Positions 27,851 to 39,530 of a stretch of 64,000 nt of DNA are shown piece after piece. The stretch is from Haloarcula sp. DT43 (lineage in GTDB: Archaea > Halobacteriota > Halobacteria > Halobacteriales > Haloarculaceae). Location: assembly GCF_037078405.1 (NCBI RefSeq), contig NZ_JAYMGZ010000002.1, positions 1-64,000 of the forward strand. The letters are read 5' to 3'. Positions within the stretch are counted from its first letter, which is position 1. Each line of letters begins with the position of its first letter. A model generated the notes under the pieces. It had not been told where the DNA came from, ran no database searches, and was given only the letters and a program-made list of their open reading frames with translations. Both the position numbers and the translations under genes were made by a program.

Positions 27851-28260
27851 GGTAGCTCACCATCCGGTTCCACGTCAGAATCTTCTTTCAAGCTATTGGG
27901 GATCAGGGCTTGGAAGTCACTGAGGTCCCTGATGTTGCCGTGGACTCGGATTACACCCCGGTTCAGGTGAGCGACGAACTCGTCGTAGAGATCTTCCTCT
28001 GGGTCTTTCCCCTCTTGGATTAGCCGTTCTTTCAACAGTGCCATGTAGAGGGCGTCGTGTTCTCCAAGCAGGGTGTACCGGTTGAAGGTTTGACCGTCGT
28101 TATCGTATTCTTCAGGGGTTGGTGGCCGTGGCTCATTCAGGGAATAGCACAGGCCGATTCTGCAGAGGTAGTTCGGTGTAAGCCCAGTATTCCCTTTCAC
28201 CATTCGTAGCCTGTTCGTGGCATCCGTCCCGATCTGTATCCGGTTGAACTCTTTGCTCAT
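27847..28260 (-). CDS. dndE: DndE phosphorothioation protein
   Basis: 137 residues with the DndE pattern: FNRIQIGTDATNRLRMVKGN TGLTPNYLCRIGLCYSL, then FNRYTLLGEHDALYMALLKE and a C-terminal HLNRGVIRVHGN. DndE binds nicked or target DNA in the modification complex with DndC and DndD. It overlaps dndD and dndA by 4 bp each. Confidence 0.94.
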   Translation of the reverse strand: MSKEFNRIQIGTDATNRLRMVKGNTGLTPNYLCRIGLCYSLNEPRPPTPEEYDNDGQTFNRYTLLGEHDALYMALLKERLIQEGKDPEEDLYDEFVAHLNRGVIRVHGNIRDLSDFQALIPNSLKEDSDVEPDGELP

Positions 28261-30281
28261 TGCGTCACCTCCAGGTCGATTTCCTCTCCTTGGTCAGGAC
28301 TGGACCAGAAGTAACCCCGAGAGACCGAGGTGTAACCTTCTTCCTGGTTGTAGTCCAGGTGATAGGCCTGAGTAACGTCGTCGTTCAGCTTGTCGTAGTA
28401 CTCGTCATCGATTTCGGTGTCAGTAGAGAAGACCAAAACTTGGTGTGATGCTTCCGGGAAGAAGTTCTCTACGAGGTTTTCCCGGTGTGCCTTGTCGAGG
28501 CGTCCGAGCGGTGTGTCGACGATGAAGGGAAGTGGTCTGCCGGAGATCTCTGCAAGTGCCCAGAGTAGGGCGGTTGCGAAGATCTGGCGTTCGCCGGCAG
28601 AGAGTTCGGACTGTGGTTTGTGGTTCCCATGTTTCGTTCTGACTTTGATGTTGAGAGCGTCTTCGTCAACCTCAATTCCTTCGTAGAAGTCGCTCTTGTT
28701 CGATAGAGCCAGGTACCGTTCTGTGAGTGCGTCTTCGAGGTTCCGAAGCTTTTCCTTGGCCAGATCTTCCCGGTATTCACTCAGCACGTTCTGTACATTG
28801 GAGGCGAGTTCTGCCCTCTCTGAGACGGTTTCTTTGTCGTCCTTCCGGTCGAGCTTGTTGTCGATCTGGTTTCCGAGTCTGGAGGTCCGTGTGTCGAGTT
28901 TGCTCAGTTCTTCCTCGATGTCTTCGATATCGGATTTGAGGGATTCCTTTTCCTCGATCAGTTCGTTCAGGTCTTCGATGAGTGGCGAGATATCCTCTTC
29001 TTCGGGGGCACGTCCAAGCTTCTCTTCGATGTCCTGCAGTTCTCGGACCATGCTCTCCAGCTCGCTGGATTTCCCACCGAGGGTTTCGGGCACCTCGTTC
29101 AGTGCTTTGTCGACGACGCCGTACATCTCACGGCGCTGTGCTTCTGAGAACTGGTGGAGGAGCTGAGTGTTCTCGTCATCGACCTGGAACCTGTTTCGGA
29201 TCTCTGACTGGAGCCGGCTCTTGATTTCTTCGGCTTGATCGTCAGGGACATCCAGGTCACTGAAGACGTCGCCATTCAGGGCGTCGTCGAGTTCGCTATC
29301 AAGCCGTTCTCTGGCAGCAGCGGTTTCCTGCTTCTCGCTTTCGTCTTTCAGCCGGTTGACGACGCTTTGGCAGAGGTTGGGTGCAAGTGCGAAGGGGTAT
29401 GCGTCGGTGACGATGTCTCGGATATCTTCTTCGACATTCTCTATCTTCGCATTGAGTTCTGCCCGGCGTTCTTTGAGTTCTTCGCGTTTGTCGGCGTAGG
29501 CACCTCCCTCTTGAGCGATATCGGATTCCTTACTGTCGATCTCAGTTTCGAGTTCAGCAAGCCGTTTTTCCTTGTCGTCCTTTCTGTCCTTGAGCTCCTG
29601 TTCACGTTGCTCCAGTTCTTCTTTCTCTTCCCGGAGTTCTTTGATTTCCTCGGTGATGCCTTCGAGACCGCTTTCGTCGAGTTTTCTGGAGCGGTAGATA
29701 GAGAGGTCTGCGTCAAGTCGGTCGACGAGGTCGAGACCGAGTAGTGAGAACAGGGAGTCTTCGAAGCTTTCGTCGTCTTCGATTGCGGTAGCAAGTTCTT
29801 GGACTTTCTCTCCGTCGAAGAAGAAGAGCTGTGAGACTCCTGGCGGGATCAGCTCCTTCAGGAAGTCTTCCCACTGGTCTTTGTCCAGGTCGGATGGCAG
29901 CTTTCCGTTACGACGTACTTCGAGGTTCTCGACGATGCTTTTACCACGGTCACGCCAGGATCGCTCGACGCTGTAGTGGTCTACCTCGCCCATATAGGCG
30001 TACTCAAATTCGAGGCGAATCGACGCTTCGTCAGCGGTGTCTTCGGGATACTCGTGGAGCTTCCCTCTGATATGCTCCTTGTAATCTGCTTCGCTGACCC
30101 GTCGACCTAACGCACTTCGCCCGTGAAGACAGATTTGGACGCCTCGGAACAGCGTGGTTTTCCCAGCTCCGTTTGATCCACCGAACAGGATGATAGGAGA
30201 GTCCTGTGAAGTGGTTAGCGTAAACTCGTTTCTGCCGCGATATGGTCCGAAATCATTGATGACCAGCTTTGTCAGTTTCAT
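28257..30281 (-). CDS. dndD: DndD SMC-like ATPase
   Basis: 674 residues. Walker A FGGSNGAGKTTLF lies near residues 34-46, followed by the DndD-typical RGVQICLHGR. A coiled coil occupies the middle, with the signature LSAGERQIFATALLW and Walker B PFIVDTPLGRLD near the C-terminus. DndD nicks or remodels DNA in the phosphorothioation complex. It lies 16 bp downstream of dndC and overlaps dndE by 4 bp. Confidence 0.94.
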   Translation of the reverse strand: MKLTKLVINDFGPYRGRNEFTLTTSQDSPIILFGGSNGAGKTTLFRGVQICLHGRSALGRRVSEADYKEHIRGKLHEYPEDTADEASIRLEFEYAYMGEVDHYSVERSWRDRGKSIVENLEVRRNGKLPSDLDKDQWEDFLKELIPPGVSQLFFFDGEKVQELATAIEDDESFEDSLFSLLGLDLVDRLDADLSIYRSRKLDESGLEGITEEIKELREEKEELEQREQELKDRKDDKEKRLAELETEIDSKESDIAQEGGAYADKREELKERRAELNAKIENVEEDIRDIVTDAYPFALAPNLCQSVVNRLKDESEKQETAAARERLDSELDDALNGDVFSDLDVPDDQAEEIKSRLQSEIRNRFQVDDENTQLLHQFSEAQRREMYGVVDKALNEVPETLGGKSSELESMVRELQDIEEKLGRAPEEEDISPLIEDLNELIEEKESLKSDIEDIEEELSKLDTRTSRLGNQIDNKLDRKDDKETVSERAELASNVQNVLSEYREDLAKEKLRNLEDALTERYLALSNKSDFYEGIEVDEDALNIKVRTKHGNHKPQSELSAGERQIFATALLWALAEISGRPLPFIVDTPLGRLDKAHRENLVENFFPEASHQVLVFSTDTEIDDEYYDKLNDDVTQAYHLDYNQEEGYTSVSRGYFWSSPDQGEEIDLEVTQ

Positions 30282-30297
30282 TGATTAGAGAGATGGT

Positions 30298-31779
30298 TCA
30301 GGTCTGCGACTCTGGCGTGTACTGCCACTTTTCAACGTTCTCTTCGCCTTCGATATCTGCTACGATTTCTTCCATAGGCCGCCAGTCCTCTCGCATGACC
30401 TTGTCGATCTCGTTGTAGATCGAGGCCCGGCGCTTCATGCCGTGGTGCTGGAGTTCGGTGTCGAGCAGTCTCTGGACTAGTTCTGGGGGAACGTCGTGCT
30501 TGTCTGCAATCTTCTTGAGCAACTTGGCTTCGGTTTCTCCGAAGGCACCGTAGTCGTCCTGCACCCAGCCGATGTCTTCCCCCATGACTTCTCTGTAAAT
30601 CTTAGGGACGGAGTCTTCCCAGTCCGCTCTTTCTTCCCGCCAGATACGGCGGATTTCTCGCAGCTCCTCGTCCCGGATAAGATCCATTTCCTCATCGTCT
30701 GGGAGCTGTTCGTTCACCTTTTTCTGGGTTTTCAGCAGCTTTCTCAGCAGGTCTTTGCAGAACTCGAATTTGTGGGCTCGGGGAATGATCCCGTTGTCGC
30801 CGTTGGTCTTGGTTTTGACGTAGCCGTGTTGCCGGCCTTTGACCTGCCTGTATTTGGGTTTTTCATCGGGGTCCTGAGTGGACTTTAGGAAGTCACGGAA
30901 CTCAAGAAGCGGTTCCATCCACTCGTCGCCTTCGTCGATCATGTTCTGCATCGCCTTGTCCTCGGATACGACGGTGCAGGTCCAGCATCCGAACCGGCTG
31001 TTACCGCAGGAAGGTGTTTTCGTGTCAATGACCATCGGGCACTCGTCGTCGGCTTCTTGGTAGAGGGCTGCGAGGTCTCGGTTTTCTTTGCCCCAAGGAC
31101 ATTCAACTTGGAGGAGGTAGGACCAGACGTCGTCGACAATCCAGTCTTCGATGGGGGTGTAGACGAAGGCGTTGGCGAATTTGTTGTGGCGGGAGAGGAC
31201 GCTACCCTCGATGCTGTGCATCTCCATCACCTGTTTCCGGGTGGCGGATTCGGCTTTGCGTGCTCCGAGGATGACCACGACTTCGCCGTGTTCGGAGACT
31301 TTCTCTTGGATGAAGCGGTCTGCCGGGTCGATTTTCAGGCGTTCGGTACACCAGCGGAAGGTCTGGTTGGGTGCTGGGTAGCCACGTCCGATGAGATTGA
31401 CCCAGAAAGAGTCGTCGACTTTCGGAGTGACTTTGTGGGCTTCGAACGGGAGATCCTCTTTCTCAGAGTATTCGTTGATGTTTTCAAGAGTACTGGTGAT
31501 ATGGTTTACAATCTTAGGAGTTTCGACGAGTGTGTCAGAGGAAATGACGTAAATAGACTTTGTTTGCTGCTCATCTGGGAGATCTTTGATAGCGTACCAA
31601 ATGAGTTGAAGGGCCGTAGTAGAGTCTTTTCCGCCGCTGTATCCGATAACCCAAGGCCGCTCATCTGCAAGATAGGTGTCGCGGATTTCCTCATAGATAT
31701 CCTCAAGAGAGCGATTGTCGAATACGGATTCTCCTTTCTCCTGACCCGTATTTGAAACGTCGAGATTGTCAGTACTCAT
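30298..31779 (-). CDS. dndC: DndC PAPS-reductase-like sulfurtransferase
   Basis: 493 residues. The PP-loop ATP site is IGYSGGKDSTTAL near residues 43-55, and the region CGNSRFGCWTCTVV holds the Cys residues that bind the 4Fe-4S cluster. DndC activates the backbone phosphate and passes sulfur from DndA to DNA. It is the first gene of the eight-gene operon dndCDEA-pbeABCD. A TATA-like element lies just upstream (about 31790-31801, reading CCTAAATAAGAG on this strand). It should not be confused with the CysH-like protein of type IV-B CRISPR systems, although an HRAMP operon lies close by on the other strand. Confidence 0.94.
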   Translation of the reverse strand: MSTDNLDVSNTGQEKGESVFDNRSLEDIYEEIRDTYLADERPWVIGYSGGKDSTTALQLIWYAIKDLPDEQQTKSIYVISSDTLVETPKIVNHITSTLENINEYSEKEDLPFEAHKVTPKVDDSFWVNLIGRGYPAPNQTFRWCTERLKIDPADRFIQEKVSEHGEVVVILGARKAESATRKQVMEMHSIEGSVLSRHNKFANAFVYTPIEDWIVDDVWSYLLQVECPWGKENRDLAALYQEADDECPMVIDTKTPSCGNSRFGCWTCTVVSEDKAMQNMIDEGDEWMEPLLEFRDFLKSTQDPDEKPKYRQVKGRQHGYVKTKTNGDNGIIPRAHKFEFCKDLLRKLLKTQKKVNEQLPDDEEMDLIRDEELREIRRIWREERADWEDSVPKIYREVMGEDIGWVQDDYGAFGETEAKLLKKIADKHDVPPELVQRLLDTELQHHGMKRRASIYNEIDKVMREDWRPMEEIVADIEGEENVEKWQYTPESQT

Positions 31780-32509: not shown

Positions 32510-32722
32510 TCAATCAGCGCTTTCACATACGACTTCACGCAATTCTTGTAAAAGATCTTCTTTATTCTCCGCCAAGATTTCGATATCTTCATCTACATTT
32601 TCAATCTTTGTGCGTATCCGGCTGACGACTCTATATCTGTAGTTGTCGGAAACATCTGCGTCTCCTCTCAGTATTTCGCGTTCACGTTCAGTGAGAAGTC
32701 CACGATATTGGTCATCAACCAT
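32510..32722 (-). CDS. Small HTH-like protein
   Basis: 70 residues, MVDDQYRGLLTEREREIL followed by RGDADVSDNYRYRVVSRIR and a C-terminal coiled segment. The LTEREREIL opening recalls the helix-turn-helix of LuxR-type regulators. Small haloarchaeal proteins with this pattern are common, but their function is not known to me. It diverges from the HRAMP operon across a region rich in dyads (32779-32840), so it is a candidate regulator of that operon or of itself. Confidence 0.6.
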   Translation of the reverse strand: MVDDQYRGLLTEREREILRGDADVSDNYRYRVVSRIRTKIENVDEDIEILAENKEDLLQELREVVCESAD

Positions 32723-32778
32723 ATTCTCGGGTTGGTCGGCCCACGAACATAGTACCTCTTACTGGGCACAGTCATCTA

Positions 32779-32840
32779 ATTACTGCAAATAGTAACTATG
32801 ACTGTATACAGTAATCTTAAGTGACTGGCTATAGTAACTG
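32779..32840. promoter_or_regulatory. Operator-like cluster of AGTAACT/CAGTAAT motifs
   Basis: ATTACTG (32779-32785) and CAGTAAT (32809-32815) form a wide inverted pair. Inside the span lies the perfect palindrome ACTGTATACAGT (32801-32812). AGTAACT occurs at 32791-32797 and again at 32833-32839, 42 bp (about four helical turns) apart. The cluster fills the divergent promoter between the small HTH gene and the HRAMP operon, as expected for binding sites of a dimeric repressor. Confidence 0.55.
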
Positions 32841-32845
32841 TTCGT

Positions 32846-32922
32846 GTGGAAGCCCAGCTCTACAGGGTGGCACGTTCGTAGAAACCGCCCAGGTGCTTAG
32901 GACACCTGAGCTGGGTTCCCAC
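32846..32922 (+). ncRNA. Candidate structured RNA (three-way junction) before the HRAMP operon
   Basis: The 77 nt fold on paper into a three-way junction. P1 pairs 32846-32860 with 32908-32922: 15 positions with one A-C mismatch and one G-U. P2 pairs GGGTGG (32865-32870) with CCGCCC (32885-32890), with one G-U. P3 pairs AGGTG (32891-32895) with CACCT (32903-32907) around a 7-nt loop. P2 and P3 abut, P3 and P1 abut, and only 4 nt join P1 to P2. The segment ends 5 nt before the first ATG of the operon. It could be a guide or scaffold RNA for the Cas5/Cas7-like proteins, or a structured leader that controls translation. Transcription is not shown. Confidence 0.55.
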
Positions 32923-32927
32923 CGACT

Positions 32928-33386
32928 ATGAGAGAACCCATGAAAGGATCCACGACGACGAATCAAGAACGTATCGACAGAGCCCTAGTTGAAGACATAA
33001 ATAAAACACAAAAACTTTGTCAGGTTTGTGGGGCGCGTTTGCGGTCGGGTGAGCGGGTGGTTGCGTATGGGTTTCGGCCGTGTCCGCGTGCGGTGTGGGT
33101 GGCCGGGCAGGTGCGATGTGTGGACCATCCGCTGTCCCTTGAGTCGATGGCGACGCTGGGCGTTTGTGAAGCGGTTTTGTCGGGTCGTGTTGGGTGGTGT
33201 GTTGATCAGGCGTATCAGCGTAAATGGCCGGTGTTGCTTGACCCTGCTGTTGAGGGCGTGTCGCCGCGTGAGACGACAGCGACGGTTGATGTGCCAGGCG
33301 TGAAGATTGAAGATTTGACTGAGTGCCCGGTTACTGAGTCGGCGTTGGAGCATCGAACGGTGCGTCGTCGAGCGGAGGTGGCGTAA
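32928..33386 (+). CDS. HRAMP operon zinc-finger protein
   Basis: 152 residues. A putative zinc knuckle near the N-terminus is formed by CQVC, then FRPCPRAVW and VRCVDH. The rest has no recognised domain and ends in a basic stretch. The ATG at 32928 and one at 32940 are both possible. It is the first gene of the operon, 2 bp before the Cas7-like gene. A small zinc-binding protein with Cas5/Cas7 homologues recalls Csf1 of type IV systems, but similarity is only in size and Cys pattern. Confidence 0.68.
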   Translation: MREPMKGSTTTNQERIDRALVEDINKTQKLCQVCGARLRSGERVVAYGFRPCPRAVWVAGQVRCVDHPLSLESMATLGVCEAVLSGRVGWCVDQAYQRKWPVLLDPAVEGVSPRETTATVDVPGVKIEDLTECPVTESALEHRTVRRRAEVA

Positions 33387-33388
33387 CG

Positions 33389-34330
33389 ATGGCAGACGGA
33401 TTCGAGTTCGCTGACCTGCCGGTTGCGGAGGCTGATCTGCTGTTCCCGGACGTGTACGTCGGCCTGGAGGTTGATCTGCTTGCGCCCGGTGATGGCGTGG
33501 TGACTGATCGGCATCATGCGTCGTCGGATCGATATGAGCCGGGTGATCCGATGAATCAGATTGAGGGGCAGATCTCGCCGTTCACGTTGTCGGGGTGGTT
33601 GCGGCACGGGTGCGAGGAGGTGTTGCAGGTTGCTGGTGCGACGGCGTGTCATCCGGGGGAGCCGGATGGGAATTACCGGCGTGGGGACGTGTACGAGCGT
33701 GATCTCGATTCAGGGTATCACGAGAAGGGCAGCTGTACCGAGGAACACGATCCCGGGTGCGTGGTGTATGACTTGTTCGGCGGGTTTGGTGATCAGCCCG
33801 GGAAGTTGTTGCGTCGGCCGGTGTCGTTCTCGCCGATTCGGACGCACGTGGATGTGCTGGATGGTGATGCGGAGGCACATTACCGGCGGGTGAGTAATCA
33901 GCTCCGGTCGCGGAATGAGGCGGATGGCGGGCAGACGCTTCGCCAGTCGGACCGGGATCTACTTGGGAATGTTGAGGGGACGTGGAAGCTCACGCTTCGG
34001 GAGGTGAAGCCGGAGTTCGTCGGGCTCCTGCTGGAAGCGGTGTCGTTTCTGGATGCGCACAGTGACGAGATGGCGTTCCAGATTGGTGGGGCGCGGAATT
34101 TCGGTGCGGGGATTGCGGATGCGTGGGTGGTGAATCCGTTGTACTCCGAGTCGGAGGTGAAGCGTGTGTTCGACCGGTCGAAGGCGGTGACGAGTGAGAT
34201 GGAGCGGAAAGACGAGGTGTGGGCGTCTGAGTGTCGGCCTGAGTTTGTGCGGGCGTTGCAGGCGCGGCTCGCTGAACGGGACAGCGACTTCGAAGCACCG
34301 GATGCGATCAACGGGGGTGGGTCGGCGTGA
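33389..34330 (+). CDS. Cas7-like RAMP protein of HRAMP
   Basis: 313 residues with RAMP features of Cas7/Csm3-type backbone proteins: an N-terminal strand LEVDLLAPG, a substrate-loop opening ISPFTLSGWLRHGCEEVL, a Cys/His-containing insertion, and the glycine-rich loop QIGGARNFGAGIADAW in the C-terminal half. Cas7 subunits coat the guide RNA in class 1 effectors. It overlaps the next gene by 4 bp (GTGA). The neighbours match the HRAMP system predicted in haloarchaea (diverged Cas5, Cas7, one conserved unknown and nucleases, without a CRISPR array). Confidence 0.8.
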   Translation: MADGFEFADLPVAEADLLFPDVYVGLEVDLLAPGDGVVTDRHHASSDRYEPGDPMNQIEGQISPFTLSGWLRHGCEEVLQVAGATACHPGEPDGNYRRGDVYERDLDSGYHEKGSCTEEHDPGCVVYDLFGGFGDQPGKLLRRPVSFSPIRTHVDVLDGDAEAHYRRVSNQLRSRNEADGGQTLRQSDRDLLGNVEGTWKLTLREVKPEFVGLLLEAVSFLDAHSDEMAFQIGGARNFGAGIADAWVVNPLYSESEVKRVFDRSKAVTSEMERKDEVWASECRPEFVRALQARLAERDSDFEAPDAINGGGSA

Positions 34331-35229
34331 CTGACCGGGGTGACGAGTCGTTGCAGCCGCCGTCTGAGTCGATTCGTCCAGCTGTTTCGAAAGGGGACGG
34401 AGTCGGTGAAGCATCGACTGAGTCGCAGACTGATGGGGATGGTGTGGGTTTGATGACTGAGGTGTATCGTCACGATGTGCATAAGGCGCGGATGCGGTCG
34501 CACGAGCATGCTGAGGGGATGTTTCGTGGTATTCCGGTCAATCGAGAGGTGCCGTTGGGTGCGGATGCGGATGCTGCGCTGTTGAGTCGGCCGCGAGGGT
34601 CGCCGGAGCAGACGGTAGCGAATCACGAGTCGTGGTTGCGTGTGTCGCTGCTGACTGGGAGTACTGGAGCGTCGGTTGGGCCGGTCGGGGAGATCGGCGC
34701 GGCCCTGTACGACGTGATCAGCATTGAGGACTCAGAGGAGCTGCACGCGGCGTGGTTGGGTGCGGCGGTGCCGGCGTTGTTCTCGGAGTCGCCGTATTAC
34801 CCGTACACGAGCCTGAAGTACCATACGTTGCTGACGGCGGCGTTGCTCGATAACTACCGGGCAGGGGCTGGGTTCGAGGACTTGTACCTCGCGGTGGGTT
34901 GCGGTGATGAGGCTGAGGTCGTTCCGCATCGGACGGTGTTGTCGCTGCCGGGGGTCGCTCTGCACGTGACGAGTGAGCCGGATGGGCGGCCGGCAGCGGG
35001 ACTCGGTGCTGTGCCGGCGCGGTCGTTCGGGGACGTCTGGGCGCGACTTCCGGAACTCCCGTTTGATGTGAACCGGGAGCGCCGGTGGCGGGTGTTGGAT
35101 GCGCAGCTTCGCCGCGTCCGGTCGTGGTCGGTGGCGTTGCAGTACGTCGAGGAGTACGTTGCCGCGCTCGGACCAGCAGTCAGCGACGGGACTGACGGGG
35201 CGTCTGGAGGTGAGTCGCGTGATACGTGA
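34327..35229 (+). CDS. HRAMP conserved protein of unknown function
   Basis: 300 residues from a GTG inside the Cas7-like stop. A disordered N-terminus of ~45 residues precedes a mixed domain with PYYPYTSLKYHTLLTAALLDNY and a C-terminal Arg-rich helical part. It has no glycine-rich RAMP loop. It occupies the place of the uncharacterised conserved protein of HRAMP and may be the large or small subunit. A 180-bp gap with dyad repeats follows, the only real gap in the operon. Confidence 0.65.
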   Translation: MTDRGDESLQPPSESIRPAVSKGDGVGEASTESQTDGDGVGLMTEVYRHDVHKARMRSHEHAEGMFRGIPVNREVPLGADADAALLSRPRGSPEQTVANHESWLRVSLLTGSTGASVGPVGEIGAALYDVISIEDSEELHAAWLGAAVPALFSESPYYPYTSLKYHTLLTAALLDNYRAGAGFEDLYLAVGCGDEAEVVPHRTVLSLPGVALHVTSEPDGRPAAGLGAVPARSFGDVWARLPELPFDVNRERRWRVLDAQLRRVRSWSVALQYVEEYVAALGPAVSDGTDGASGGESRDT

Positions 35230-35271
35230 TGTCGGTGTTGGCTTCGTGAGGCAGGGGGTCGCTTCCGGTCA

Positions 35272-35409
35272 GGACACTGGAAATGGGGTGTGTCTGGGTG
35301 GGGCTCGGTGGTGTGTGGACACTGGAAATAGGGTGTGTCTCTCACGGTGTGGTGGCGGGGCGGTCTTGTGTCGTGTCATTAGATGGACTGGAAATGCGGG
35401 GGGTTGTGC
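35272..35409 (+). repeat. Dyad-bearing repeat pair with decayed third copy inside the HRAMP operon
   Basis: Two 24-bp direct repeats lie at 35272-35295 and 35317-35340, differing at one base (G or A at repeat position 14), with a 21-bp spacer (35296-35316). Each begins GGACAC and ends GTGTCT, able to pair as a 6-bp stem around a 12-nt loop that starts TGGAAAT. A degraded third copy starts at 35385 (GGACTGGAAATG). The arrangement recalls a minimal CRISPR-type repeat-spacer-repeat unit, but is shorter than canonical arrays and lies in a G-rich stretch, so chance duplication is possible. Confidence 0.55.
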
Positions 35410-36381
35410 ATGACGGCGATTCAGCAGGTACTGTTCGAACTTGAGGAGCAGTATCTTGGACACCCGTATTTCGTCTCCGGAAACGCGTTGTTCAACGCCT
35501 TGGCGCGTCGTGTTGATGCGGAGACGCGTCAAGCCCTCCAGGTGAGTCACGGGGTGTTCGTGCCCGGCGAATATGGTGAGTACCCTGACGAAGCGTCACA
35601 GGACGGGTATGGGGGGAAGCTCGGCCAGTCATTGCCGGATGTTGAACGGTACGCGGACTTGTTCGTGTATCGGGATGCGGCGCAGCGCTGGTTGCTTGAT
35701 TCACGGCCGCGAGATGCGCATAATGCGTTCGATATTCAGCTGCACGGTGATCGAGTGGCGTTCGCGCCGACGTGTTGGTTCGGGCGGCCGTCGCACACGC
35801 AGAAGTCGAAGCGGTCGGTGTCGTGGTACGTCCAGTGCTACCTACACACGGGGCCGGGCGACGATGGTGTGGTTCCGGTTGATGAGGGTGTGCTTGACGA
35901 GTTGCGAGTCGGCGGTGCGCGGAACTACGGGTTTGGCGAGTTATCGCTCGTTGACACGCAAATCGTTGAGCTGGATGCGCTGGACTTCTCCCGGCTGCAG
36001 GGGGCGCAAGCGGACGGTGAGGCGTGTCGGCTTGAACTCGTGACGCCGTACGTCCTCGATACGGAGCATCCGAGTGGCGACGCGCAAGAGGTCCCGTGGT
36101 GGTGGCGTGTCGACACGGACGGGAGGACTCCTGGTTCGATGAGCGGGTTACGTCGCCGTGAGACGCGTTTCGTTGACGGGGCGGAGTCGTATACGGTGAG
36201 GGCGGTGGATCACGGGCAGGTCGTCGCGTATGCTGGTGATGATCCGGTGGCGACGGCACGAAACGGTATCTTGCGGGTCGGGACGCATTCCCGGCTCGGT
36301 TTCGGCGAGTTCAGGGTTCGCCCCCCGGGTGAGGATCGTGTGCCGGAGCGTCGTGCTGTTCGAACGGGTGGTGAGGCGTAG
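35410..36381 (+). CDS. Cas5-like RAMP protein of HRAMP
   Basis: 323 residues from the ATG at 35410 (MTAIQQVLFELEEQ); an earlier in-frame ATG at 35383 lies within the repeat region and is less likely. Two glycine-rich RAMP loops are visible, RVGGARNYGFGELSLV in the middle and RVGTHSRLGFGEFRV at the C-terminus, as in Cas5/Cas6-type double ferredoxin folds. Cas5 caps the 5' handle of a guide RNA, whereas Cas6 cuts repeats. A His in LQVSHGVFVPGEYG could be relevant if it processes RNA. It overlaps the next gene by 1 bp. Confidence 0.75.
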   Translation: MTAIQQVLFELEEQYLGHPYFVSGNALFNALARRVDAETRQALQVSHGVFVPGEYGEYPDEASQDGYGGKLGQSLPDVERYADLFVYRDAAQRWLLDSRPRDAHNAFDIQLHGDRVAFAPTCWFGRPSHTQKSKRSVSWYVQCYLHTGPGDDGVVPVDEGVLDELRVGGARNYGFGELSLVDTQIVELDALDFSRLQGAQADGEACRLELVTPYVLDTEHPSGDAQEVPWWWRVDTDGRTPGSMSGLRRRETRFVDGAESYTVRAVDHGQVVAYAGDDPVATARNGILRVGTHSRLGFGEFRVRPPGEDRVPERRAVRTGGEA

Positions 36382-37040
36382 TGTTGGAGCAGGTGGCGTT
36401 TGATATCGAGACGACTGGGTTTGATGTCACCGATGAGGTGACGGTGGTCGGGTTCGCGCTCTCGATGGGGGTGCAGGTGTTCGTCCAGACTGGGAATCGC
36501 CCAGTCGAGGATCTTCAGGCGACGGTGCAAGAGCAGGTGCCGGTGCACGTGGATGTCTCGACGCACATGTCTGAGGAAGAACTGCTCCGGGCTGTGACGG
36601 GGTTCGTTAAGGAGCGACTCAGCGGCTCGGACGTGTTACTCGTCGCGTATAATGGTGAGCGGTGGAACGGCGGATTCGATCTACCGTTCCTCCGTACGCG
36701 ATACGCCGAGCGCGACCTGGCGTGGCCGTTCGTGGATGTGCCGTACGCGGACGTGCTTCCGGTCGTCACTGACCGATTCAATACGTGCGTCGACGGCGAC
36801 GACCAGCAAGACTTGGAGGGCGTGTACGGCCTGTTGTGCGACGGTGAGTACGCCGACGTAGACCCATTCGATGAGAGTAGTGATGCAGTGCCGGCGTTCG
36901 AGAACGGTTGGTTTGAGGAACTGGTGCAGCACAACGTCGCGGATGTGCTGCGGACGCGGGCCTTAGGCCGGGTCGCTGAACGGTACTGTAGCAAGTCAGA
37001 GTTCCAAGTGAAGTCACTCACGCCGACCAGGGAGGTATAA
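36381..37040 (+). CDS. DEDDh-type exonuclease of the HRAMP operon
   Basis: 219 residues of the RNase H-like DEDD family. Motif I is VAFDIETTG (D8, E10), motif II is VAYNGERWNGGFDLPFL, and motif III is QHNVADVLRTR, the HxxxD form. The GTG start shares its G with the Cas5-like stop TAG, so the gene is firmly in the operon. It could degrade target nucleic acid or trim a guide RNA 3' end. The related protein at 13100-13837 has a Tyr in motif III and a different neighbourhood. Confidence 0.82.
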   Translation: MLEQVAFDIETTGFDVTDEVTVVGFALSMGVQVFVQTGNRPVEDLQATVQEQVPVHVDVSTHMSEEELLRAVTGFVKERLSGSDVLLVAYNGERWNGGFDLPFLRTRYAERDLAWPFVDVPYADVLPVVTDRFNTCVDGDDQQDLEGVYGLLCDGEYADVDPFDESSDAVPAFENGWFEELVQHNVADVLRTRALGRVAERYCSKSEFQVKSLTPTREV

Positions 37041-37229
37041 CATGAGTCGTATTCATTCAGCCGCGAGGCCAAGCGAGCGGAGAGGTGGGTTCAGCTCCTC
37101 GTGGAGTCCGGGATGATCGGTGACTCTTGGTTTCGGTGGGAGCGCTGGCTGGGTGCCTGCGGATTGAAGCGATACATCACTCACTTCCCGGGAGCGTCGA
37201 CGAGCAACCGATCAACGAGAGTACGAAGC

Positions 37230-38279
37230 ATGACAGAGACGACGGCACAACTGAACGGGGAATCGAGCGGTGAACGAACAGATAGCGGCGGGTCTGACCG
37301 GATTGGACACTGTGAGTGTCACGAGACGGTTGACCCGGATACGCGGGAAGATGTCTTGGAGGAGTACAAGCATCGGTGCCAGTCGTGTGGGCGTTGCGGG
37401 CCCGAGGAAGGCGGGTTGGCGACATTGCATGTCCATCATATTGAGCGGAATCCGGACGAGATGGATGAGCACGCGATGGAGAACTTGACGCTGATGTGCC
37501 GGCCGTGCCACAGTTGGCTCCATCAGCAGGCAACGCCGGGTGAATCGCCAGTGACAATTACGGACGCGGACCGGAGCGTCCTGTTGCCACAAGACATTGA
37601 GGTACTGCAATTCCTCGCGGCGCATGGGCCGAGCCGGACTGGGGAGGTTGCATCCGGGATGACTGCAGATCTGTCTGTCTCGTCGGTCCGGGAACGACTC
37701 TGGGTGCTGATGGGACTGGACAATCGTATCGAGTCGCGTGACCGGCAGATCGTCGATAAGGACATCGAGACCGGGGAGTGGGGGCTTCTCGATCAGATCG
37801 AGAACTCAGCTCGCGGGCATATCCCTGACGACCAGCAATTGCTGCTGCAACGGATGGAAGACGAGCAGGTGCGACGCGCACTCGACCGTGGCTGCGACCG
37901 GCACGCCGTGATGGACGTCCTCGGGATTTCGCGGCGCTCAACGTTCAATAAGGTCAAGCGAGCGTACGCGTATGATTTCCCGCTCGACGCGTTCAGTCGC
38001 GGCGGGCGTCCCACGGACTCTCGGCCGGAACAGAGTTCAGCTGCGGCTGAAAGCGAGTCTGATCAACAGCAACGGCTTGATGACGTCGCTGAGCCAGAGA
38101 GTCCTGACCTGGGCCGGACTGAGACGTGGGGCACACCTGAGTCGAACTCGGCGGGGGAAGCACCGCGGGATAGTGATCAGCGAAATGGGCGAGCAGGAGA
38201 CGACGGGATGAGTGACGAACTGCGGACAAACCTACAGCAAGCTATCGAGTCCTTACAGGACATCAACACGGCACTCTGA
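37230..38279 (+). CDS. HNH endonuclease with C-terminal HTH
   Basis: 349 residues from the ATG at 37230. An HNH nuclease lies at about residues 30-100: CQSCGRCGPE, LHVHHIERNPD, ENLTLMCRPCHSWLH. A helix-turn-helix-like part follows near 200-250 (HAVMDVLGISRRSTFNKVKRAYAY), then a disordered tail. It is 190 bp after the DEDDh gene on the same strand. The 190-bp interval keeps an open frame without an ATG whose translation looks protein-like (SREAKRAERWVQLL), possibly an older N-terminus or a remnant of another gene. Nuclease genes of this kind accompany HRAMP loci. Confidence 0.75.
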   Translation: MTETTAQLNGESSGERTDSGGSDRIGHCECHETVDPDTREDVLEEYKHRCQSCGRCGPEEGGLATLHVHHIERNPDEMDEHAMENLTLMCRPCHSWLHQQATPGESPVTITDADRSVLLPQDIEVLQFLAAHGPSRTGEVASGMTADLSVSSVRERLWVLMGLDNRIESRDRQIVDKDIETGEWGLLDQIENSARGHIPDDQQLLLQRMEDEQVRRALDRGCDRHAVMDVLGISRRSTFNKVKRAYAYDFPLDAFSRGGRPTDSRPEQSSAAAESESDQQQRLDDVAEPESPDLGRTETWGTPESNSAGEAPRDSDQRNGRAGDDGMSDELRTNLQQAIESLQDINTAL

Positions 38280-38321: not shown

Positions 38322-39530
38322 ATGGAGTGTACGGACTGCGGAGCAGCCTTGAGTGATTTCATGGCTGAAATGGTTTCCATTGGCCGTATAGATGTACTGC
38401 GGTGCTTTTCGTGCTACTTGGAAGGCCCCTCAATTGCGATGGAATATGACGATATCGAACCTCGTGTCCTGGACAAATCTGTTCCGATGATGAGGGAGGC
38501 GCTCTCAGATACGCTCTCGATCAAGCTCGATGTCCTCTTCGAGACGAATCCTGCTGAAGGCGTTGTGGTCTTTACTCAGACAGTTGATGACGCGGGTGTC
38601 CTTCGTACTCAGTTCCTAGAGTCCGCGTTTGGGCCGTATATCGAAGAGATTCATAGTACTTCTCTTGCTGCTGTGTACTCAGACGGGTATGAACAACTCG
38701 CGTGGGATGCGGCAAATTGGCAACATGATCCGTATAGACGTATGCACCGGAACGAGCCCGAATACAATCTGGTTAGCGGGGTTCCCTGCATTCTTGACGC
38801 ACATCGGTTTATGAGTGAAGAGACAAGGGAGAGTGTCGCAGTGGATCTGCGCGGCGAGTTCTTTGAACGAGTCGGCAAGGAGGGATTCGATTCACTTACA
38901 GATGTACGTGGGACTGTTGAGGAGAAATTCCCGTTCGTCGCAGAAACGAGTTCGTTCGTGACTTCGAAAGTCGTGGAATACTATCGCCGGAATCCGGAAT
39001 ACATTCCGACCACGTTTGCGACCTATGATGAGTCTGACTCCGCTCACTCTACGCGGGAGGTCGCCTCCCGGGCTGAGCTAGAGCGCATATACGAGGAGGA
39101 GGAGGTTGAGGACACAGACACCTACCAAGATGAGATTATCGCCCTGTTAGAAGCTGCTGAGGGAGCGCGTTCATCTGATATTGCAGAAGTGGTTGGGTGC
39201 TCAGTGGGGCACGCGCGCCGATTCACGTACGATCCCTCAACGGAGACAGCTTTTCGTAAGGACTGGTCGAAAGCTGCTGAGTCAGAAAAGGTATCTCCAG
39301 CGAAGCGAGATCGGATCATCGAACGGGACGGAGAGTGTCGCCGCTGTGGGTGCTCAGAGGAACTCCGCGTTCATCATATCGTTCCGATTGCGCTTGGAGG
39401 AGAATCAGAGTCTGAGAACCTGGTGACACTCTGTGAGGAGTGCCATCAGGATGCTCATAGTGGTGCGTATAATCCTCCGACGACGGTATACGATGGGCCT
39501 GATGAATTCGAAGATTGGGTATCTGAGTGA
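38322..39530 (+). CDS. HNH endonuclease with N-terminal zinc ribbon
   Basis: 402 residues. The N-terminus has CTDCGAAL and RCFSCYLEG, a zinc ribbon. The middle (~200 residues) is unrecognised. A winged-helix-like region (ALLEAAEGARSSDIAEVVGC) precedes the C-terminal HNH domain with CRRCGCSEE, RVHHIVPIALGG and NLVTLCEECHQDAH. It is 42 bp after the HNH-HTH gene and could belong to the same unit, or be a separate restriction-like nuclease. Confidence 0.75.
   Translation: MECTDCGAALSDFMAEMVSIGRIDVLRCFSCYLEGPSIAMEYDDIEPRVLDKSVPMMREALSDTLSIKLDVLFETNPAEGVVVFTQTVDDAGVLRTQFLESAFGPYIEEIHSTSLAAVYSDGYEQLAWDAANWQHDPYRRMHRNEPEYNLVSGVPCILDAHRFMSEETRESVAVDLRGEFFERVGKEGFDSLTDVRGTVEEKFPFVAETSSFVTSKVVEYYRRNPEYIPTTFATYDESDSAHSTREVASRAELERIYEEEEVEDTDTYQDEIIALLEAAEGARSSDIAEVVGCSVGHARRFTYDPSTETAFRKDWSKAAESEKVSPAKRDRIIERDGECRRCGCSEELRVHHIVPIALGGESESENLVTLCEECHQDAHSGAYNPPTTVYDGPDEFEDWVSE

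Follow-up and report, generated by a model that had tools for sequence, protein, structure and literature searches.

The window, by which we mean the whole 64,000-nucleotide stretch of DNA analysed here, carries an HRAMP operon on its plus strand. The operon is preceded by a TATA box, a compact three-way-junction RNA and a short segment that runs into the start codon of the first gene. The features are as follows, in the coordinates of the window:

32510 to 32722, minus strand: divergent 70-aa ORF with the pattern TEREREIL...YRYRVVSRIRTKI
32778 to 32840, plus strand: repeated or inverted half sites of the AGTAAC/CAGTAATC type around the TATA box, a putative operator
32816 to 32821, plus strand: TATA box CTTAAG, whose centre lies 27.5 nt ahead of the P1 5' end; the predicted transcription start is at about 32846
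32846 to 32922, plus strand: three-way-junction RNA, with helices P1 (32846-32860/32908-32922), P2 (32865-32870/32885-32890) and P3 (32891-32895/32903-32907)
32912 to 32918, plus strand: TGGGTTC in the P1 3' arm, the strand common to P1 and an alternative helix, P4
32934 to 32940, plus strand: pre-start segment GAACCCA, complementary to 32912-32918 (P4); its last base is the A of the conserved start codon
32940 to 33386, plus strand: first gene of the HRAMP operon, encoding a Cys-rich protein of 148 aa with no Pfam match; its start is moved here from 32928
32958 to 32978, plus strand: position of the P5 hairpin (+19 to +39), not convincingly formed in the window
32964 to 32976, plus strand: nucleotide signature at +25 to +37, inside the ORF, reading CAAGAACGTATCG (consensus CWWRAANNYNNCG)
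33389 to 37040, plus strand: HRAMP genes, comprising a Cas7-like gene (33389-34330), a gene at 34327-35229, a Cmr3/Cas5-like gene (35383-36381) and a DEDD nuclease gene (36381-37040)
up to 40965, plus strand: HNH/PD-(D/E)XK genes following the HRAMP genes

Two of the HNH proteins (37101-38276 and 38322-39527, plus strand) match the HNH part of the NCBIfam model for RNA-guided IscB, with scores far short of its cut-off. To the left of the operon (28257-31779, minus strand) are genes for DndC (PADLOC E 3e-205), a DndD-like SMC-type ATPase and, adjoining, a cysteine desulfurase-like protein. They probably form a phosphorothioation cluster beside HRAMP, the latter two being named by sequence alone.

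An earlier, sequence-only reading had described helices of 15, 6 and 5 bp over 77 nt. All three helices stand, with the correction that P1 consists of 14 pairs and one A.C mismatch (32850/32918); P2 has 6 bp and P3 has 5 bp. That reading was right to describe a junction with almost no unpaired bases, as four unpaired nucleotides separate P1 from P2 and none lie between P2 and P3 or between P3 and P1. The folding energy of the 77-nt element is -38.4 kcal/mol, compared with -25.1 +/- 3.2 kcal/mol for shuffled sequences (z -4.12), and 0 of 200 shuffles reached its stability. Together with the covariation of the copies described below, this bears out the view that such complete pairing is not due to chance. 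Three features come in addition to those of the sequence-only reading: a second pairing that reaches over the start codon, a promoter that sets the P1 5' end at +1, and copies at other places. The loops contain conserved bases (GAA in the P2 loop and U in the P3 loop), which could constitute a candidate aptamer. None of the Rfam 15 covariance models matched the element at its gathering threshold; extending the search up to E 10 yielded a single meaningless match (E 9.6) on the opposite strand. Two further structural proposals were discarded. A kink-loop/L7Ae site in P2 would be possible in some copies (e.g. L006), where tandem G.A pairs could form, but it is absent from the window and from the family. 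Pairing of the P2 loop with the +25 to +37 signature as a pseudoknot would have 6 bp, in the window only; the small number of other copies examined by eye lacked it.

Related copies were sought with a covariance model, R1, built from 8 HRAMP leaders. In the model-fitted alignment of 85 copies, 93.3% of the cells are paired and 20 of the 25 pairs show two-sided changes; the covariation score is 0.50, whereas shuffled sequences give 0.20 and slid partners no more than 0.11. Because this alignment was fitted to R1, the count was repeated on an alignment of 30 copies (A6) made with MAFFT from sequence alone. There, 89.9% of the cells are paired, 20 pairs are changed on both sides, and the score is 0.43 (shuffled, 0.22; slid, at most 0.13). 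The evidence for P1-P3 is partly dependent on the search, since the copies were found with R1; P4, the promoter layout and the +25 to +37 signature lie outside that model and hence are independent of it. Within P1-P3, G.U cells outnumber A.C cells by 157 to 46, an excess that favours an RNA function of the plus strand over a function of the DNA or of the opposite strand. R1 also matched the reverse strand, as expected from arms that are palindromic, and these mirror matches were set aside. The element is thus a conserved, covarying structure, and its placement in an mRNA 5' UTR is predicted from the TATA spacing.

The spacing between the TATA box and the transcription start is established in archaea. 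With the box centred 27.5 nt upstream, the first base of P1 is the predicted start of transcription. Among 56 non-redundant copies, A or T makes up 95% at positions -28 and -27 from the P1 5' end, and an A-rich, BRE-like stretch occupies -32 to -35. The inverted repeats around the TATA box slightly exceed in length those of shuffled sequence (mean 8.6 versus 6.7), and the half sites are wholly different in sequence from locus to locus. Winged-HTH genes lie divergently at the same place in two plasmid copies (L138 and L139). These half sites and divergent genes make a local transcriptional regulator plausible. In the window, the 70-aa ORF at 32510-32722 might possibly be that regulator, which is a guess in view of its lack of a clear Pfam match. 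The idea that the promoter repeats are targets of the RNA loops was dropped, because loop/operator matches failed to hold across loci.

The sequence-only reading had the fold end 5 nt before the first ATG. This spacing is correct for the ATG at 32928, but the start codon that is conserved is the following ATG in that frame, at 32940. Among about 38 homologous HRAMP leaders the position of 32928 mostly holds no start codon, reading GTC, GCC, ACG and the like, and in several HRAMP loci in-frame stops lie right behind it. A GAACCC-like segment always precedes the conserved start. As this segment is noncoding in the loci with in-frame stops, its conservation operates at the level of nucleotides.

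The pre-AUG segment is complementary to the P1 3' arm, and in each copy the complementarity is to that copy's own arm. In the window the alternative helix P4 is GGGTTC/GAACCCAUG, i.e. GGGTTC/GAACCC; other copies have GGTCTTC/GAAGACC, GGTTTGT/ACAAACC, GGGTTGTT/AACAACCC, GCTGTTTC/GAAACAGC, GGGCTT/AAGCCC and others. A variant copy belongs to VNG_RS11530 on pNRC200 of Halobacterium salinarum NRC-1, with TGCTTCG in the 3' arm and CGAAGCA ahead of the AUG. A scan of positions -16 to +30 around the AUG placed complementarity to the copy's own 3' arm only at -8 to +3, with z about 10-11 relative to permuted partners. Over the 56 non-redundant copies it scores 15.3; permuted partners give 11.9 +/- 0.33, and the observed value was reached in 0 of 5000 permutations, a test that leaves some relatedness among the copies; a perfect 5-bp P4 is absent in about 10 of the 56. 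P1 and P4 are mutually exclusive, and P4 reaches the translation start. Because the P1 3' arm also covaries with its 5' arm, the three strands covary together, as expected for two competing helices. The same 466 bases of the 3' arm form 72 G.U pairs and 25 unpaired or mismatched positions in P1, and 20 G.U pairs in P4. Inner P1, P2 and P3 remain intact when P4 forms. The P4 state is calculated to lie above the P1 state by a median of 3.4 kcal/mol (3.2 in the window; range -8.8 to 12.2). This predicted gap is small enough that a trigger could have an effect, with the reservation that the energy parameters apply to about 1 M NaCl and do not describe molar KCl.

A further conserved feature lies inside the ORF. 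In the 56 non-redundant copies the signature has A or T at +27 in all 56, A at +29 in 54, a pyrimidine at +33 in 54, C at +36 in 52 and G at +37 in 54. The residues that it encodes vary (QE, LQ, LE, YK, EN), and silent positions are constrained: the codon for Gln-9 is CAA in 23 of 23 cases (background 0.33), and that for Leu-9 is CTT in 12 of 12 (background 0.14). The signature keeps its place relative to the AUG, whereas the junction lies at a varying distance from that codon, 11-26 nt in almost every copy; this ties the signature to the start codon or to P4. A hairpin, P5, pairs +19 to +24 with +34 to +39 in about half of the non-HRAMP copies, with 51% of its cells paired. In permutation tests the observed pairing was matched in 0 of 1000 trials for the non-HRAMP copies (shifted controls were negative) and in 368 of 1000 for the HRAMP copies. 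P5 was consequently rejected as a universal hairpin and was kept out of a second model, R2, which is longer than R1 and describes the element together with the start region.

One sub-class of copies, often present many times in a genome (L106, L109-L112, L117-L121 and L123), precedes short Arg-rich ORFs (M..ILPGYKRPAR). In codons 7-13 of these ORFs, from about 20 nt past the AUG, is a covarying hairpin (CGGGA/TCCCG, CGAGA/TCTCG) with the loop TATAAACG. The short ORF may be a leader peptide, or it may be noncoding. In another pair of copies, L139 and L140, unrelated ORFs begin with almost the same 14 codons (ATGTCAATGAAGACATCCGCCGGACTTCAGGATTCCGGCACG) behind leaders that differ; this pattern points to mosaic exchange, its breakpoint lying at the start codon.

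The distribution of the element was surveyed in 392 genomes of the order, 97 of which encode the Cas7-like protein. R1 detected it in 182 of these genomes and R2 in 278 (about 70%), spread over 78 of 95 genera; matches below about 30 bits were inspected in part. Both the element and a Cas7-like gene are present in 87 genomes, the element without a detectable Cas7-like gene in 191, and the Cas7-like gene only in 10. The source genome of the window has three copies, and others have up to about ten, copy numbers being lower bounds because at most eight candidates per genome were scored in the R2 survey. Outside the order there was no credible match, only ones at chance level (G413 and G503), and the one in G413, on inspection, was without the start-codon layout. 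Exact-pattern scans of viral contigs, a weak test, and blastn of phages found no element in viruses.

Conservation of the structure upstream of other HRAMP operons, which the sequence-only reading had proposed as its own test, is present: the element is directly upstream of every family-A operon examined, and a match, weak in some cases, lies near most family-B operons. In family-B loci, TnpB-like ORFs (Cas12f1-like TNB domain, OrfB_IS605) were seen in the interval that separates the leader RNA from the Cas7-like gene (L074:306-965, minus strand; L049:5307-5870, plus strand). The ORFs downstream of the copies, clustered by residues 21 onward, fall into at least 32 unrelated clusters, among which SWIM is the sole recurrent Pfam domain. 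CxxC or SWIM-type metal-binding motifs occur in 17 of the 53 downstream ORFs outside HRAMP family A, compared with 3.9 expected from shuffles.

No description of the element was found in the literature searched, a search that left most subscription journals outside; within those bounds, it is a previously undescribed leader RNA. With translational riboswitches and other leaders that sequester the start site it has in common a conserved junction at the 5' end, an exchange of helices of variable sequence and occlusion of the translation start. It differs from riboswitch platforms in that the partner of the common strand is a segment that ends on the AUG itself and not an SD sequence, in having a fixed signature inside unrelated ORFs, and in its restriction to haloarchaea; it would work like a translational leader or riboswitch platform, though membership of the riboswitch class would call for a ligand. 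The fluoride riboswitch of Thermococcus is named as the sole natural riboswitch in archaea that has been determined experimentally (PMC8241225). The S15 leader of Halobacteria is likewise a haloarchaeal structured mRNA leader, and one that resembles a multistem rRNA junction (PMC7247131). Archaeal leaders of that kind precede ribosomal protein genes, whereas this element precedes HRAMP, SWIM, other small zinc-finger ORFs and unknowns, and no recognisable ribosomal protein, S15 (rpsO) included, was found among the ORFs read downstream of the copies. CRISPR guide RNAs, tracrRNA and scaRNA are also compact structured RNAs beside Cas7-like genes; the element, in contrast, has no repeat or spacer, is found in HRAMP-free genomes and pairs with its own AUG. 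The omega RNA of IS200/IS605 TnpB is a haloarchaeal structured RNA too, and TnpB-like fragments lie near some copies (L074, L049). The element, however, is a leader at the predicted +1 ahead of ORFs, and most of its downstream genes are unrelated to TnpB. Membership of the omega RNAs was rejected: instead of overlapping or following tnpB, the copy in the window and most others precede unrelated ORFs, and TnpB-like ORFs were seen only near some family-B copies.

We propose that the element is probably a cis-acting 5' leader that controls translation by exchanging strands between P1 and P4 over the start codon. Transcription would begin at the first base of P1, as judged from the promoter spacing, and the leader would fold into the P1/P2/P3 junction. 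About seven bases of the P1 3' arm could pair instead with the pre-AUG segment, P4 then stacking on inner P1 with P2 and P3 intact. With P1 complete, the start codon would be free and translated; with outer P1 unzipped and P4 formed, it would be covered and translation would be low, this direction being the one that we infer. A protein, a metabolite, salt or temperature, or 5' processing might shift the balance between the two helices. As P1 is usually predicted to be more stable than P4, the switch would be mostly on without such a trigger. The +25 to +37 signature might serve as a binding or positioning site that is read together with the switch, and HRAMP operons would be one client among many. 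The parts of this proposal that can be read from the sequences are the conserved P1-P3, the three-strand covariation, the promoter spacing and the +25 to +37 signature. More tentatively, and with appreciable doubt, the copies may represent a haloarchaea-specific leader class, with a junction at +1, a helix exchange at the AUG and a +25 to +37 signal that is read by a shared trans-acting factor, combining start choice without an SD with the control of defence and mobile genes, HRAMP included, across the genome.

The main rival of the switch reading is a structured initiation aid. The upstream junction and the +19 to +39 signature or hairpin would lie on either side of the start codon and position the small ribosomal subunit there without an SD, and P4 would be a mark of the start site instead of an off state. 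Such an aid would suit organisms that make no use of an SD, and SD pairing is unused at the 5'-UTRs of Haloferax volcanii (PMC3986360); it would also agree with a signature that stays at a fixed distance from the AUG where that of the junction varies, and with the occurrence of P5 in about half of the non-HRAMP copies. P4 pairing, however, would hide the AUG and not present it, the weakness of outer P1 relative to P4 suggests competition, and most haloarchaeal genes lack such an element; we regard this explanation as rather unlikely. It is improbable, in turn, that the fold acts as DNA, in a recombination site or mobile cassette (attC-like) that carries promoter, leader and first codons to new ORFs. 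The shared first codons of L139 and L140, and the several copies on plasmids and close to transposases, would fit a cassette. The fixed TATA spacing, the anchoring of P4 on the AUG, the predominance of G.U over A.C and the constraint on third codon positions in the +25 to +37 signature all indicate a function in mRNA. Cassette shuffling could nevertheless proceed alongside an RNA function.

Of the two roles put forward by the sequence-only reading, that of an HRAMP guide or scaffold RNA, released from the mRNA leader by cleavage and then bound to the Cas7-like protein, now seems very improbable. HRAMP is array-less (PMC12669027), and the position of the element before family-A and most family-B operons, as well as its presence in 87 of the 97 genomes with a Cas7-like gene, would accord with such a role. 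As a general function it is contradicted by the 191 of 278 element-carrying genomes without that gene, by the many unrelated genes that copies head, and by the pairing to the element's own start codon. The other role, a leader controlling translation, is supported by the covariation, the predicted position at the 5' end and the covariation of the P1 strand with the pre-AUG segment. Control of transcription only, with operator and promoter conserved and the leader fold of little weight, would draw on the operator-like repeats that flank the TATA box and on the wHTH genes divergent from two plasmid copies. It is scarcely credible, given that the operators change completely among loci, yet P1-P3 covary.

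Start-site mapping in Haloferax found no leader on 72% of coding transcripts and led to the judgement that structured leaders are "not typical" there (PMC4983044). How haloarchaeal mRNAs that have a leader and no SD are started is unresolved (PMC3986360). Given these observations and the lack of SD use at 5'-UTRs, either a switch or an initiation aid would be new for haloarchaea. The presence of a covarying leader in about 70% of the sampled genomes, together with its competing helix at the AUG, makes initiation without an SD directly testable. If the switch reading holds, HRAMP would share translational control with a large number of other genes, both small zinc-finger ones and unknowns, and this would hint at a signal common to them.
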